Positions 7,606-59,102 of a stretch of DNA of 64,000 bases are shown here, one piece after another. Both the position numbers and the translations under genes were made by a program. Source of the DNA: Capitulum mitella (taxonomy: Eukaryota; Arthropoda; Thecostraca; Pollicipedomorpha; Pollicipedidae); the NCBI GenBank assembly GCA_030062745.1, contig CP099846.1, positions 29,843,201 to 29,907,200 of the forward strand, written 5' to 3'. Positions within the stretch are counted from its first letter, which is position 1. Each line of letters starts with the position of its first letter. The notes beneath the pieces are model-generated. The model did no database searches, was not told the origin of the DNA, and saw only the letters and a program-made list of their open reading frames with translations.

Positions 7606-9985
7606 TTTGGCTCGGTTTCTGCGCACAGCAGCGACGATGACGCCATATTTCGCCAATCTCCCAACTTCCCGTCGGACGTCATTTGTTCGTTCGTTCGGGT
7701 ACCAGTCTTGAGCCTTAGTGTAGCCACCTTATTTTGTACCACTCCAACGGCTCAAGCGACTGGATGACCCCCCCCCCCAAATCAGTTACTGAGGTTTTGC
7801 TCTATTTCGTGTGAGACTATTGGTTGACGCTTTTCGCTACAACCATGTCCCTCGGCCTGTCCTTAATTCTCAGCCTGCCTGCTCCTGTTCCGCCATCCTT
7901 TGTCCTCCCTGCGCCCTGCCGGCGCCGTTGTGGCCGCGGCAGCTGATCGTCCGCCGGCCGGCCGGCCGGCCGCAGCTGTGAAGGTCAGGACCCAGCCGAC
8001 CCGGACGTCAATGTCGCCTCCATTTGGCCGCGCCGCTGACTCAGCCGCCGCCGTTTTTATGTGCCCGTCAAACAGCGCGGCGCCGATCGGCACGTGTATT
8101 CGTGATTCATACGCTGCCACTCACGTCCACGCCCACACGTATTAAAGCCATCACAGGCCGAATGAAAATGCAGCGAGAACTGTACGCTCGGTCGGCTGTG
8201 TTCGTTCATGTTCGGTGTTGTGAAAATCATGCATAATGCACCGGGTGAGCGTTCGTTTACCGTTGGGTCGATGCAAAGATGGCACAGCATCCAGAGCAGA
8301 AGTGAAAACGTTACGGTATCAAGGCGAGGCAGTTAAACATGTCGTCAGGTAGTGCTAACGAGTATAGATATGGGCGACATTTTGCATCATTCATAAACAG
8401 TGACAAGGCCTAACTACAACTTCCCCTTCCTCCTTTTGCGAAAAACTGTTCTGTAGGACGATGTACGCTACCATCAACCTAAGTGCAAGCAATTAACACA
8501 GCACTATAATTTACCTAGCAATGTGGTACATTCGCTACAGCACACTTTCACAGACCGACCGAAACATAGCATGCAAAGGCTCACTTTGCTGCAATGGCCT
8601 GCGCAAGTGCTTTGTTGATCGTGACGCAATGTCGGTCGTTTTCACTCGGGAGTCCCAAGGTGCCCCGTTTTTCGTGGCCTTGGCATCGAGGAGGTGACGT
8701 TGTCGTCGGCGGGTCGCCCGGGCCTTTCATCCGGCTCCCGCAAGTACTCATCAGATCCCGTATGTTGGCGCAAAGCGCACGTCCGCCCCGTGCACGTGCG
8801 CGGCTCCGCGCAAACAGGCCGGAATCGAGCCTCTGCCGCCCTCGCCCGGCGCCGCGCGGGCAGAAATCACGCGCACTTCACACGCCCGCTCGGTCTCGTC
8901 GAGCGCTGGCCCGGTGGTGGGAGCGTCTTTAGGCAGCGAACGATCGACCACTGTGCACCGACAGCTGTTCGCAGGACGTCGCTCCTCCCGAAGATCCAGG
9001 ATCGCAGGTCTCGCTCCACCGGTTACAATGCGCCGGCCAGTTTCCCTCCGACGGCGGCAGGATAGCGGTCAGTTCGCTCCAGCACAGGCCCGCGGGTTTC
9101 GTCCTCTGCGTCACGCACAGTGCAACGCGGTCCACGAGATGAAACGCCTCTCAGGGCACACCCCGCCGGCTAATGGTAACCCGGGTCGCCACCGGGCTCT
9201 CACATCATGTCGACCCGACGGCCATTTGGCTCCAGGCCTTGCTCCTGCCGCCAGCAGGCCAGTCTGTGGCTGAACCAGCGCTGAAACAGATACGCTCCAG
9301 TTACCAGCAGGCCAACGAGAGGCGCACAACGCGATCACAGGGTGGGCCGATTGCAACATAAAGGCCGGGACTTACCAGTATGGTTTGGTAATGAGCAGGC
9401 GTCAGTCAGGAATGCCGTTTGTCAATGTGGACTAACCCTGGCCTGTTGTCTGCTGATGTAGTGTTCATAAACTAAATAAACTTATTCCGGCACCGGGCAC
9501 CACTAGAGTGTGAAGAAGGCGAGCCACAGTGAGTGAATTCGGGGATCTAAGACAGCGAATGATTTCAGGACACAGTTGGCTGGATCAAGGCCTTTGGAAA
9601 GCTACCAAAACCCACGGGTAGTCATGGACCGATGATATTCCTTTCTGGAGAGGTCCGTTGCTTTACAAAGAAGGCAGCATTGTATGAATATCAACTACCA
9701 CTGCAGCTCTTCATCCGCCTGAGCCGGGGTCGCAGGGGCGCTTCCTGATGACGAATGCTGACCCGGCCGGTTGACCCAGTTTGCGGCGCCCCGAAGTCCC
9801 GACCGCTACAGATCGTTCTCTCGCCATCCGTAAAAACCGCGCGCGAAAGCGGCGGAGGCCGACCGTCGTAGTGTCGGCCGATAACCTATCGGCCGTCACA
9901 ATCAAACCGCCGCCTCTGATCGATGCCGGTCGGGCGCTTTAATTGGCGCCGCCTGGCACGCGGAGAGCGCCCGTCCCCGCCGCCG
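7606..9985. other. Intergenic with scattered CpG-rich blocks
   Basis: GC- and CpG-rich patches at about 7860-8110 and 8690-9350 contain overlapping ORFs in several frames, as expected from composition alone. No splice-flanked conserved exon was found. A poly-C run lies near 7769-7778. Confidence 0.35.
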
Positions 9986-10325
9986 CCGCCCGCGGCGCGG
10001 GACGCTCCCTGGCCGCCGCCGCCACGGGCGCGGGACGCTCCCTGGCCGCCGCCGCCCGCGGCGCGGGACGCTCCCTGGCCGCCGCCGCCCGCGGCGCGGG
10101 ACGCTCCCTGGCCGCCGCCGCCCGCGGCGCGGGACGCTCCCTGGCCGCCGCCGCCCGGGGCGCGGGACGCTCCCTGGCCGCCGCCGTCACGGCGCGGGAC
10201 GCTCCCTGGCCGCCGCCGTCACGGCGCGGGACGCTCCCTGGCCGCCGCCGTCACGGCGCGGGACGCTCCCTGGCCGCCGCCGCCCGCGGCGCGGGACGCT
10301 CCCTGGCCGCCGCCGTCACGGCGCC
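9986..10325. repeat. GC-rich minisatellite, about 33-bp unit
   Basis: Roughly ten copies of gcgcgggacgctccctggcc plus gccgccgccc; later copies use a gtcacg variant that is one base shorter. The array creates long overlapping ORFs on both strands (repeats of ARDAPWPPPP), which I regard as by-products. Confidence 0.9.
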
Positions 10326-17330: not shown

Positions 17331-17555
17331 GTGACTGAGGTGTCACGCCGCCGCCGGCTGTCGGTCATTCCGGCACGAGCGGGCGGTGGCGGCGTGACCT
17401 TGCGCCATCGACACAGAGGACGGCGGTCGGAGCCGGACACACGTGACAGAGCGGCCGGACCGGCGGCGGCGGCCCAGACGGGCCGGACACAGCGGCGCCG
17501 GCGAGAGAAGGCCGGACGGAGCGCGGAGCACAGCCGGAGAACCGAGCACAGTGAC
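17331..17555. other. CpG-rich block next to the 17.5-kb array
   Basis: GC-rich, with ORFs in several frames on both strands. No exon was supported. Confidence 0.3.
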
Positions 17556-17870
17556 CAGGCACAGGAGTGTAGGAGATCCGGGTGCGCTGACCGGCCAGAG
17601 GAGTCGAGGAGATCCGAGCAGAGTGACCGGGCACAGGGATGGAGGACATCCGAGCAGAGTGACAGGGCACAGGACTGTAGGAGATCCGAGTCCAGTGACC
17701 GGCACAGGAGTGTAGAAGATCCGGACATCCTGCCCGAGAAGAGGTGTGTAGAAGACCTGGACATCCTGCCCGAGCAGAGGTGTGCAGGCGATCCGAACAG
17801 AGCGATGGACAGAAGAGTGTCGGAGACCCAGGCGCTCTGACCGAGCAGAGGAGTGTAGGATATATGGTCA
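17552..17870. repeat. Degenerate minisatellite, about 36-bp unit
   Basis: About nine diverged copies of gtgaccgggcacaggagtgt plus aggagatccgagcaga. ORFs in this block on both strands are products of the array. Confidence 0.75.
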
Positions 17871-19742: not shown

Positions 19743-20248
19743 CGCTCGCGCTCGGTCGCCCTGACAGCTGCCGCGCTGAGCAGCGGTCGGTCGCGCTGAC
19801 AGCTGCCGCGCTGAGCAGCGCTCGCTCGCGCTGACAGCTGCCGCGCTGAGCAGCGCTCGCTCGCGCTCGGTCGCGCTGACAGCTGCCGCGCTGAGCAGCG
19901 CTCGCTCGCGCTCGGTCGCCCTGACAGCTGCCGCGCTGAGCAGCGGTCGGTCGCGCTCGGTCGCCCTGACAGCTGCCGCGCTGAGCAGCGGTCGGTCGCG
20001 CTGACAGCTGCCGCGCTGAGCAGCGCTCGCTCGCGCTGACAGCTACCGCGCTGAGCAGCGCTCGGTCGCGCTCGGTCGCGCTGACAGCTGCCGCGCTGAG
20101 CAGCGCTCGCTCGCGCTCGGTCGCCCTGACAGCTGCCGCGCTGAGCAGCGGTCGGTCGCGCTCGGTCGCCCTGACAGCTGCCGCGCTGAGCAGCGGTCGG
20201 TCGCGCTCGGTCGCCCTGACAGCTGCCGCGCTGAGCAGCGGTCGGCGC
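19743..20248. repeat. Minisatellite, alternating 45- and 36-bp units
   Basis: About thirteen copies of ctgacagctgccgcgctgag plus cagcg and a variable number of (g/c)gtcggtcg or ctcgctcg blocks. Units differ by 9 bp, so on the - strand the array is one long ORF (SARQLSGRPSATDRC repeats). I see no evidence that it is translated. Confidence 0.9.
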
Positions 20249-20685
20249 CGGCGCGCACCAGTCCGATTTGGCGCCGTTTCTGGCGAGCGCGCGACTAACG
20301 AACGTGACAACTGCGACCCGCTGCTCCCGGAATGTCGTTTCTGGGTCAGAGGCGGGTGAGTGACATTTTTGTCGGGCTCAGTCTCTGCGTGCGCTCTCAC
20401 GAGTCCGCACGCCGAGGCACATTCAGCTCCTCTGTTGGAACTTAGGGTTGAAGGATCGTTCCCCGCATATCCACTCATGCCTGGAAAGCCAATGATTACA
20501 ATGGTTTTTGGCTTTCTGCAGGACCGATACAAAGCAAACGTTAAAGGGTCTGATGCAAAAACATCGTAATCAAATAACGATCTCGCATAGATGTCATTCG
20601 TCTTCAGTTTTTGCGGTTCTTCACGCCATCTTTGCCTTGAGAGCACATTCCTGAAAAAGCTCTGTCTGCATATCACAAACCATTC
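20249..20685. other. Spacer between two minisatellites
   Basis: No exon or motif is supported. Confidence 0.4.
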
Positions 20686-20923
20686 GTCAGACGAGTGCCG
20701 TGACTGTGGGTGTCCGTCAGACGGATGCCGTGACTGTGAGTGTCCGTCAGACGGATGCCGTGACAGTGAGTGTCCGTCAGACGGGTGCCGTGACTGTGAG
20801 TGTCCGTCAGACGGATGCTGTGACTGTGAGTGTCCGTCAGACGGATGCCGTGACTGTGAGTGTCCGTCAGACGGGTGCCGTGGCTGTGAATGCCGGTCAG
20901 ACAGGTGCCGTGACTGCCGCCGC
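20686..20923. repeat. Minisatellite, 30-bp unit, eight copies
   Basis: Unit cgtcagacggatgccgtgac plus tgtgagtgtc, well conserved. The length is a multiple of three, so several frames stay open; coding function is unlikely. Confidence 0.92.
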
Positions 20924-36254: not shown

Positions 36255-37013
36255 CACATGTCCGAATGTTCGGACGAATCTATTAGGTCTATTTCAAAGA
36301 CAGGTCAATCACACATGCCAAACGTTCGCAGATGAAAGTCATGTAACCGAGACGAATCGTCCGTCACCCAGCGCCACACGGCGATCATACACGATCCTCC
36401 TTCCATCCCACCACCAGGCATACCGGACATAACGCTGGCAAACCGAGGACAGCAAACGCAGCGCCGCAACCAAGCACGATTACAACAGTGTGTGTATCCT
36501 GGTGCGTCCATGCGACTGCTACAAGGGTATAAGGCAGAGTATTCAGATAAACAAAACAAAAGAACGTTAATTAACTTTTTCGAAGTATACGCGAGTAACA
36601 AATCTGTTTCAAGTTTTTATGCATTACCATGTTCGATGTATGTATCAATGTATTCAAATTAAATGTATCGTGCATGTATGCATTTTCGTCAACATGTTTG
36701 ATGTATGCTTGATGTCTGAAGATTCTCCTCAAAACAATATTATGTAATGAACTACTGAATAACGTCACAACGGACCCATATGAAATAACCCCACTTTTAC
36801 GCAGCAGAAACAAATATAAAAAAGATGCCTTCGTCGTCCATATCTCCCGAATACGCAACTAACCTCACATACAATCTACACAATAATACCAAGGCCCATG
36901 TATCCACCGCAGTTTTCATCACTGTATAAAGACCTGCGCATCCAACAAAAAGGCACGCCCGATGGCGGCCAAGAGGACCCCTCCCCCTTTCTCTGCTGCC
37001 GCTGGTAACTGAC

Positions 37014-37171
37014 CGGTGCAGGTCGGCGAACATGGCCTCGATGTTGGCCACCTCCTGACGAGCTTCGTCCCGCTCCATAGTGAGTTTGCGCACGGTGCCC
37101 GTCAGCCTGTCGTCCTGGCGCTCCTTCTCAGCCGCCAGCCGCACCAGAGTCGCCGCGTACAGGTCCACCGT
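37014..37171 (-). CDS. TACC: TACC coiled-coil exon next to the 50-bp array
   Basis: Encodes TVDLYAATLVRLAAEKERQ, then a charged helix to EAMFADLHR. Acceptor ctcggcag at 37172; donor CACCG|gtcagt at 37013. The (M)F-x-DLH(R)-(R/K)YEK junction with the next exon matches the core of the TACC domain. The acceptor and first 15 coding bases are repeated in the adjoining minisatellite; this copy is the one joined to real coding sequence. Confidence 0.92.
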
Positions 37172-39034
37172 CTGCCGAGACACAACTGAGCTCAGAGGAA
37201 CACCACGTACAGGTCCACCGTCTGCCGAGACACAACTGAGCTCAGAGGAACACCACGTACAGGTCCACCGTCTGCCGAGATACGACTGAGCTCAGAGGAA
37301 CACCACGCACAGGTCCACCGTCTGTCGAGATACGACTGAGCTCAGAGGAACACCACGCACAGGTCCACCGTCTGCCGAGACACAACTGAGCTCAGAGGAA
37401 CACCACGTACAGGTCCACCGTCTGCCGAGACACAACTGAGCTCAGAGGAACACCACGTACAGGTCCACCGTCTGCCGAGACACAACTGAGCTCAGAGGAA
37501 CACCACGCACAGGTCCACCGTCTGCCGAGACACAACTGAGCTAAAAGGAACACCACGTACAGGTCCACCGTCTGCCGAGACACAACTGAGCTCAGAGGAA
37601 CACCACGTACAGGTCCACCGTCTGCCGAGATACGACTGAGCTCAGAGGAACACCACGCACAGGTCCACCGTCTGTCGAGATACGACTGAGCTCAGAGGAA
37701 CACCACGCACAGGTCCACCGTCTGCCGAGACACAACTGAGCTCAGAGGAACACCACGTACAGGTCCACCGTCTGCCGAGACACAACTGAGCTCAGAGGAA
37801 CACCACGCACAGGTCCACCGTCTGCCGAGATACGACTGAGCTCAGAGGAACACCACGTACAGGTCCACCGTCTGCCGAGACACAACTGAGCTCAGAGGAA
37901 CACCACGCACAGGTCCACCGTCTGCCGAGATACGACTGAGCTCAGAGGAACACCACGTACAGGTCCACCGTCTGCCGAGATACGACTGAACTCTGAGGAA
38001 CACCACGTACAGGTCCACCGTCTGCCGAGACACAACTGAGCTCAGAGGAACACCACGTACAGGTCCACCGTCTGCCGAGACACAACTGAGCTCAAAACAC
38101 CACGCACAGGTCCACCGTCTGCCGAGACACAACTGAGCTCAGAGGAACACAACGCACAGGTCCACCGTCTGCCGAGATACGACTGAACTCTGAGGAACAC
38201 CACGTACAGGTCCACCGTCTGCCGAGATACGACTGAACTCTGAGGAACACCACATATAGGTCCACCGTCTGTCGAAGATACGACTGAACTCAGAGGAACA
38301 CCACGCACAGGTCCACCGTCTGCCGAGATACGACCGAACTCTGAGGAACACCACGCACAGGTCCACCGTCTGTCGAGATACGACCGAACTCTGAGGAACA
38401 CCACACACAGGTCCACCGTCTGTCGAGATACGACCGAACTCTGAGGAACACCACACACAGGTCCACCGTCTGCCGAGATACGATGAACTCTGAGGAACAC
38501 CACGTACAGGTCCACCGTCTGCCGAGATACGACCGAACTCTGAGGAACACCACGCACAGGTCCACCGTCTGCCGAGACACAACTGAGCTCAGAGGAACAC
38601 CACGTACAGGTCCACCGTCTGCCGAGACACAACTGAGCTCAGAGGAACACCACACACAGATCCACCGTCTGCCGAGACACAACTGAACTCTGACGAACAC
38701 CACACACAGATCCACCGTCCGCCGAGATACGACCGAACTCTGAGGAACACCACGCACAGGTCCACCGTCTGCCGAGATACGACTGAACTCTGAGGAACAC
38801 CACGCACAGGTTCACCGTCTGCCGAGATACGACTGAACTCTGAGGAACACCACGTATAGGTCCACCGTCCGCCAACTGAGACAACTGAGCTCTGAGGAAC
38901 ACCACGTATAGGTTCGCCGTCCGCCAACTGAGACAACAGAGACAACTGAGCTCTGAGGAACACCACGTGTAGGTCCGCCGTCCGCGGTGATAGAAATGAG
39001 CTTTGAGGAATATCATGTACAGGCCACCGTCTTC
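37156..39034. repeat. 50-bp minisatellite built from a TACC splice acceptor
   Basis: About 37 units of cgtacaggtccaccgtctgc plus cgagacacaactgagctcag plus aggaacacca. On the - strand each unit carries the exon's 3' splice site (tctcggcag) and its first coding bases for TVDLY, followed by gtggtgttcctctgagctca. Units near 37.2-38.1 kb are the most uniform; those above 38.8 kb are diverged, so growth was near the exon. Long ORFs here (up to 196 codons) come from a unit whose length is not a multiple of three and are not genes. Confidence 0.95.
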
Positions 39035-40599: not shown

Positions 40600-40935
40600 C
40601 GGGCAAGGTCACAGGTGCAACGTCCAGTGTCAGACGCACCACATCCAGATAGTGTCAGACGCACAACACTCAGAGAGAGTCAGACGTACAACACCCAGAC
40701 AGTGTCAGACTACATCTAGACAGACGTGCAGCATCCAGACAGTGCCAGACGTACAACACTCAGACAGTGTCAGAAGTACAACACCCAGACAGTGTCAGGC
40801 GTACAAAACCCAGACGGTGTCAGACGTACAACACCCAGACTGCGTGAGACAGAACATCCAGACGGCGTCCGAGGTACTTCAGATGTACGCAGACAATGTC
40901 ACAGGTGCAGAACCCAGACAGTGTTAGCGGTGTTG
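40600..40935. repeat. Degenerate 25-bp minisatellite next to a TACC acceptor
   Basis: About a dozen copies of cagacagtgtcagacgtaca plus acacc in the intron, starting about 15 bases upstream (on the transcript) of the acceptor at 40588. Confidence 0.8.
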
Positions 40936-58877: not shown

Positions 58878-59007
58878 GGGAGATGGAGATGGAGATGGAG
58901 ATGGAGATGGAGATGGAGATGGAGATGGAGATGGAGATGGAGATGGAGATGGAGATGGAGATGGAGATGGAGATGGAGATGGAGATGGAGATGGAGATGG
59001 AGATGGA

Positions 59008-59102
<95 letters not shown>
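58878..59102. repeat. (GGAGAT)n followed by (GA)n
   Basis: About 22 copies of ggagat, then about 45 GA dinucleotides. On the TACC transcript this is (CT)n followed by (ATCTCC)n, about 70-290 bases upstream of the cassette exon acceptor. Confidence 0.95.

Follow-up and report, generated by a model that had tools for sequence, protein, structure and literature searches.

A 50-bp minisatellite repeats the predicted 3' splice site of a TACC exon in the barnacle Capitulum mitella

We have identified a minisatellite in the barnacle Capitulum mitella whose 50-bp unit spans the 3' end of an intron together with 16 bp at the start of E2, a predicted exon of the cell-division gene TACC. The array is real, is striking in copy number, and belongs to the uncommon but previously described 'mirage' kind of boundary-spanning repeat. 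It extends the mirage structure to a barnacle; under that name, the best-ranked matches in the open-licence literature gave it only for amphioxus. Fourteen of the upstream decoy acceptors equal the real site over positions -20 to +3, and together they form a ladder that differs in distance to the E2 donor. This comes close to an ideal natural test of whether 3' splice-site choice is decided by proximity across an exon. We consider it probable that the array is a mirage minisatellite that is mostly neutral, and that the right acceptor is picked largely by exon definition.

The host gene lies on the minus strand of the window, the 64,000-nt stretch of C. mitella DNA that was analyzed. Predicted exons at 39829-39728 (E1), 37171-37014 (E2), 36068-35919 (E3) and 35635-35467 (E4) join in frame to encode 192 amino acids followed by a stop codon. 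When compared to the Pfam TACC_C profile (PF05010), this product matched with an E-value of 1.2e-19 and a score of 71.3 bits (cut-off 29.9), covering positions 16-201 of the 201 in the profile. Two of the four exon stretches submitted alone matched TACC_C below the cut-off, at the adjacent profile parts 45-95 and 96-146, and the other two submitted alone gave no TACC_C match. The C-terminal part also matched a PDB TACC3 chain weakly (E 0.0043). As judged from the predicted product, the host gene is a member of the TACC family and contains the C-terminal TACC coiled-coil domain. The exon junctions were predicted from the TACC_C match together with splice signals. E1 (102 bp), supported by the gene model and its donor score, has the donor AAG/GTAAGC and contains a whole number of codons, and the E2 acceptor is therefore in phase 0. 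E2 (158 bp; TVDLYAATLVRL...FADLH(R)) starts with ACGGTGGACCTGTACG (TVDLY) directly after GGCAG. E3 (150 bp) is supported by the gene model and the TACC_C match, and E4 is the last coding exon of the model and carries the stop codon. The introns flanking E2 are 2556 and 945 nt in length.

Tandem Repeats Finder (TRF) placed the array at 37156-39032, with a period of 50, 37.4 copies, 91% matches and a score of 2718, the highest in the window (the next-best repeat scored 910). It sits in the intron upstream of E2, and its final copy is the genuine acceptor plus the first 16 exon bases at 37171. Splitting the copies at the acceptor yielded 36 well-formed upstream units and the genuine junction, and units were numbered from 1 (distal) to 36 (adjoining the exon). 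A degenerate 37th upstream copy, the most distal (38982-39030, acceptor at 39030), keeps its AG (gaag) and, when aligned, departs from the consensus unit by 11 mismatches and a single 1-base gap. An earlier note on this DNA had described a minisatellite multiplying a 3' splice site about 36 times, with the acceptor and the first coding bases of the exon at 37171 inside a 50-bp unit. Both descriptions were borne out by TRF and the unit list, with the junction itself being predicted. The genuine acceptor region (37172-37200) comprises 29 nt of intron ending in CAG, and the sequence from -29 to +16 is identical in eight of the 36 upstream copies; for -20 to +3 this number is the 14 given above. 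The AG is retained in 32 of the 36 well-formed copies. In units 1, 2, 3 and 6 it is missing, with CGG preceding in place of CAG, and what the earlier note says of splicing to the acceptor in each upstream copy thus applies to 32 of the 36.

Unit variation follows a gradient along the array. Units 1-6, at the distal end (38669-39030), differ from unit 36 by 16, 9, 5, 6, 7 and 6 edits, and units 20-36 differ by 0-4 edits, as do the exon-proximal units 25-36 (37172-37771) among them. Unit 8, identical to unit 36, is an exception to this trend. There are 21 unit types among the 36 units, the commonest of which accounts for eight, and in the 31 units that are exactly 50 bp long, 16 of 50 columns vary. 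A four-unit block, HSTH, occurs twice at a spacing of seven units (350 bp), as units 25-28 and 32-35. The shuffled variable sites and this block repeat point to unequal exchange or conversion that would have included the genuine boundary. The genuine boundary, on the exon side of the array, has not escaped homogenization, as it matches the nearest unit. A dispersed repeat was also considered and rejected, since all of the matches listed for the array in the assembly (at least 10; 477,042,490 bases in 16 contigs) fall within the array itself.

Splice sites were scored with a simple generic weight matrix, which is of general origin rather than trained on C. mitella. By this matrix, the real acceptor scores 4.86, at the 90.5th percentile of the 7231 AGs in the window. 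The 32 AG-bearing decoys range from 4.47 to 7.32, and 26 of them equal or exceed the real site. A scan with the same matrix covered 117 AGs in the array, 84 of them at other unit positions, and some of these outscore the real site (8.89 at 38927 and 8.77 at 37535). Concealment of the decoys by RNA folding was rejected, as predicted pairing is alike for the real site (mean 0.64) and the six nearest decoys (0.61-0.70). Neither the splice scores nor the folding predicted for the real site and its six nearest decoys revealed a local feature marking the correct acceptor. What separates the real acceptor from the decoys is its distance to the donor at 37013.

We then read the decoys out in the phase of the exon. 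An immediate stop was found in 21 of the 36 copies, all of them among the 32 that bear an AG: ten read TVDLYVVFL-stop, ten TVDLCVVFL-stop and one TVDLCVVF-stop. The remaining 15, which include the four copies lacking an AG, continue for 18-158 amino acids. The earlier note had given TVDLYVVFL followed by TGA as the product of each copy, which is exact for ten copies and close for eleven more, and does not describe the 15 that run on. Every phase-0 read ends within the array and none of the 36 reaches the exon, and the possibility of a coding array was rejected on these grounds. Truncation by each decoy, as had been proposed, thus holds at the exon-acceptor position of the unit (36/36) and fails for two other AGs, in the units next to the exon. 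With first exonic bases at 37285 and 37240, these would, under the gene model, open into the exon and lengthen E2 in frame by 38 and 23 amino acids (37172-37285). Likewise, the picture of a row of acceptors in which only the one adjoining the exon gives a full product is true, from sequence, at that unit position. As the unit length of 50 is no multiple of three, reads cross all frames of the unit, and one unit type, N (2/36 units), is open over four tandem copies. As a control, 300 units were shuffled with their composition kept; 33 or more of the 36 copies stopped in 257 of these, and none stopped in the other 43. Stopping inside the array is therefore the chance expectation, and we rejected truncation as evidence of design, since shuffled 50-bp units mostly stop as well.

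The anatomy of the array and the equality of its sites are direct observations, and the following account of its origin and behavior is built upon them. As read from the unit, a tandem duplication probably once brought together ~16 bases from the start of the exon and ~34 from the end of the intron. The array would then have grown, and unequal exchange or gene conversion would have homogenized it and made the real acceptor part of the shared pool. The last copy would serve as the working acceptor mainly because, measured across the exon, it lies closest to the donor downstream: the distance is 158 nt for the real acceptor and 208, 258, 308 nt and onward for the decoys. Most decoys would be silent, and any leak would come from the nearest few copies, giving transcripts with an early stop that would probably be removed by quality control. 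The array would then be mainly neutral or slightly costly, and it probably has little effect. Given 32 near-equal competitors, a real leak from the array is nevertheless plausible.

Several points bear on exon definition as the means of choice. Exon definition is reported to favor the sites closest across the exon (PMC9225289, abstract), and the long introns on either side (2556 and 945 nt) favor this mode of recognition. The donors of E1, E2 and E3 score 11.4, 5.8 and 8.4 bits with the generic matrix, and the best donor-like string in the array, present in one copy, scores 4.8 bits; the decoys are thus without a better donor of their own. The E2 donor scores lowest of the three (5.8 bits), and this weakens the case for exon definition. 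In the available text of PMC9225289, long flanking introns make the upstream 3' site significantly less preferred, and for equal long introns that text gives no reversal. Its 3'-site data are weaker support than the closest-site statement in its abstract.

In order to place the TACC array in a genomic context, splice boundaries in kinase and kinesin genes of the assembly were sampled; the sample is partly hand-chosen and non-random. The kinase set comprised 80 of 138 listed matches, namely the 30 best loci and 50 matches in 40 hand-picked stretches favoring partial matches, and the kinesin set comprised 71 of 129 listed matches, from 14 hand-picked exon-dense stretches. Boundaries were placed with the generic weight matrix at most 24 nt from the HMM edge, by which a few may be misplaced, and the 5' boundary of locus L091 was excluded from the further kinesin set for having no splice signal in range. 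A 24-mer centered on each boundary was then used to seek extra copies within 2.5 kb. Extra copies were found at 7 of 246 sampled boundaries (2.8%, 95% interval 1.2-5.8%), with copy numbers smaller than that of TACC: 6 of 116 kinase boundaries, none of a first 75 kinesin boundaries and 1 of a further 55. The extra copies are on the intron side in all seven, and at the six boundaries of the first set (191) every one of the 17 extra copies keeps its AG or GT. By the same test, the TACC boundary has 32 extra copies, the most among the boundaries examined (the next has seven), and six other TACC boundaries have none. These results suggest that boundary copies recur in conserved genes.

The same 24-mer test was applied at set distances from the boundaries. 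Moving into the intron, copies were found in 12/246 cases at 30 nt, 15/246 at 60, 14/246 at 100, 7/186 at 150, 15/230 at 200, 9/228 at 300 and 3/180 at 400; moving into the exon, they were found in 2/246 at 30 nt and in 0/246 at both 60 and 80. For the first 191 boundaries, the rate of 6/191 did not differ significantly from 10/191 at intron position -30 (Fisher p 0.44) or from position -60 (p 0.23), and it did differ significantly from exon position +60 (p 0.03). The boundary rate is thus above that of the exon interior and not significantly below that of nearby intron. Tandem repeats with a period of at least 10 make up 4.7% of the kinase sample (188,160 bases), and TRF arrays lie within 30 nt of 7 of its 116 boundaries. 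Loci L049 and L050 have a TRF array near a boundary with no boundary duplication by the 24-mer test, and L048 is duplicated with no TRF array. Among the first 30 kinase loci, blastn gave no exon self-copies, and 13 of the 30 had no inner boundary by the boundary rule. Although the numbers are small, they fit arrays that arise in many places and are tolerated at splice sites. This tolerance is only loosely shown, by a boundary rate close to that of nearby intron and the 3/180 at 400 nt.

The duplicated boundaries are varied in form. Loci L045 (acceptor 898) and L048 (acceptor 934, reverse strand), which we take to be GSK3-like genes, have the same acceptor duplicated in units of 60 and 62 bp whose intron parts can be aligned, and 222 of 234 exon bases are identical between them. 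As these are paralogues, two of the seven boundary matches perhaps reflect one event. From this similarity, the duplicate probably predates the gene pair or spread by conversion; an independent origin is less likely. At L055 (1417-1740), in what is presumably a CDK-like exon, a 69-bp unit in 4.7 copies with 98% matches multiplies the donor GTGAGT, with copies at half-unit spacing carrying GTGGGT. L072 (795-928, reverse strand), presumably a MEK-like exon, has a perfect 66-bp duplicate over its acceptor, and splicing to the upstream copy would add 22 in-frame codons. L064 (1094-1391) repeats the donor end of its kinase exon in roughly ten degenerate units of 28 bp (66% matches), three of which pass the 24-mer test. 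L046 (reverse strand) has four more copies of the kinase acceptor at 801, at -98, -157, -215 and -274, all with AG, and L091 (reverse strand) has one more copy of the kinesin acceptor at 2580, 104 nt upstream.

The mirages of amphioxus were reportedly described by Canestro and colleagues in a 2002 paper in NAR. The C. mitella array resembles them in its minisatellite-like tandem units (here 50 bp x 37.4, with 91% matches), in a unit made of exon and intron sequence across a splice junction (predicted here), and in that the splice signal survives in many repeats but is lost from some (here the AG is kept in 32/36). It also resembles them in a pattern of concerted evolution in which copies at the distal edge escape (units 20-36 versus units 1-6, with unit 8 as an exception). 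The host differs, being a barnacle TACC gene. Amphioxus mirages are reported in Adh3, the globin genes BflGb6 and BflGb9, TnC and PGBD5 (PMC3087553, PMC3902484, available parts), PGBD5 being the addition of PMC3902484, which in its available part cites Adh and TnC as producing no aberrant mRNAs. The available parts of both papers report regular splicing as undisturbed for the globin, Adh and TnC mirages, as well as length variation and somatic instability (PMC3087553, PMC3902484). As far as these parts go, the BflGb6 mirage, like the TACC array, spans the 3' end of an intron and the 5' part of an exon, but its two haplotypes carry 3 and 6 units, each 150-160 bp long, in contrast to the 37 upstream 50-bp copies seen here. 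The Adh3 mirage units are given there as 10-72 bp, compared with 50 bp for the TACC unit. Among the best-ranked matches in the open-licence literature, judged by titles and the starts of abstracts, no barnacle or crustacean case was recognized.

Other systems in which splice sites are repeated are more distant. A 1995 paper in NAR is said to describe a minisatellite with multiple splice donors in the interferon-induced 6-16 transcript, the gene of which we take to be IFI6. There too a splice site is multiplied within a gene, but donors are repeated in IFI6 and an acceptor in the TACC array; an IFI6-type donor minisatellite was rejected here, since the repeated junction is an acceptor and donor-like strings reach at most 4.8 bits. 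The polyubiquitin gene UBC contains tandem AGGT sites that can be used as donor or acceptor and that delimit coding ubiquitin monomers (PMC10809524, available part). On that description, UBC resembles TACC in having splice sites arrayed in tandem within a single gene, whereas the TACC-array acceptor is followed by ACGG and its units are intronic. A recursive or dual-specific (AGGT) array was rejected, because the units read GGCAG followed by ACGGTGG. The intronic VNTRs of ABCA7 and TERT, compared by their brief descriptions, likewise tie an intron repeat to a splicing outcome (predicted for the TACC array), but those descriptions mention no unit holding the gene's own splice site, as the TACC unit is predicted to do.

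In a regulatory array, as the earlier note proposed with a length that may differ between individuals, decoys would be used frequently, and the length of the array would decide what fraction of transcripts is truncated or decayed and how much full-length TACC is made. This reading would draw on the 32 retained AGs, the 26 decoys that score no lower than the real site, and the failure of all 36 phase-0 reads to reach the exon. In the available text of PMC9225289, moreover, the upstream preference of 3' sites is no more than lowered under exon definition. Against this, such stops are expected by chance (257/300 shuffled units), 15 of 36 copies lack an immediate stop, similar copies at other boundaries have mixed consequences, one being in frame, and the amphioxus cases are reported, in the available parts of PMC3087553 and PMC3902484, with no disturbance of splicing. 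We regard the regulatory array as unlikely. A broader version would make splice-boundary minisatellites a standing feature of the genome (7/246) and the TACC array a length-dependent dial, in which every added unit would be an extra competing acceptor leading to an early stop. If true, allele length would control the amount of full-length TACC; we rate this version as somewhat less likely again.

We are slightly more doubtful still that the array is an intermediate of intron and exon evolution, in which the unit may turn into a new exon or move the boundary. Such a role has been proposed for the amphioxus globins (PMC3087553, available part). The in-frame array AGs that would add 23 or 38 amino acids, the open reading of type N units over four tandem copies, and the in-frame 22-codon duplicate at the L072 boundary would all suit it. 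A sign that the unit is used is absent, however, and donor-like strings in the array reach no more than 4.8 bits with the generic matrix. Least probable of all, and in our estimate very improbable, is an assembly artefact, either a wrong copy number or a mis-joined array. Tandem arrays are difficult to assemble, and one amphioxus mirage was apparently assembled aberrantly in the draft genome (PMC3087553, available part), but the matches listed for the array (at least 10 in the assembly) are all inside it, the differences between units are structured with a distal-to-proximal trend, and the same class of repeat is found at other boundaries.

The window is rich in further minisatellites as identified by TRF, and its GC content of 57.3% is likewise that of the kinase sample, in which the CpG ratio is 1.07. 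These minisatellites include arrays at 40625-40840 (25-bp unit), 19746-20240 (45/205), 20685-20916 (30-bp unit), 9979-10315 (33 bp) and 17536-17799 (36 bp). At 58879-59101, a pure run of GGAGAT x 22.8 is followed directly by pure GA x 45.
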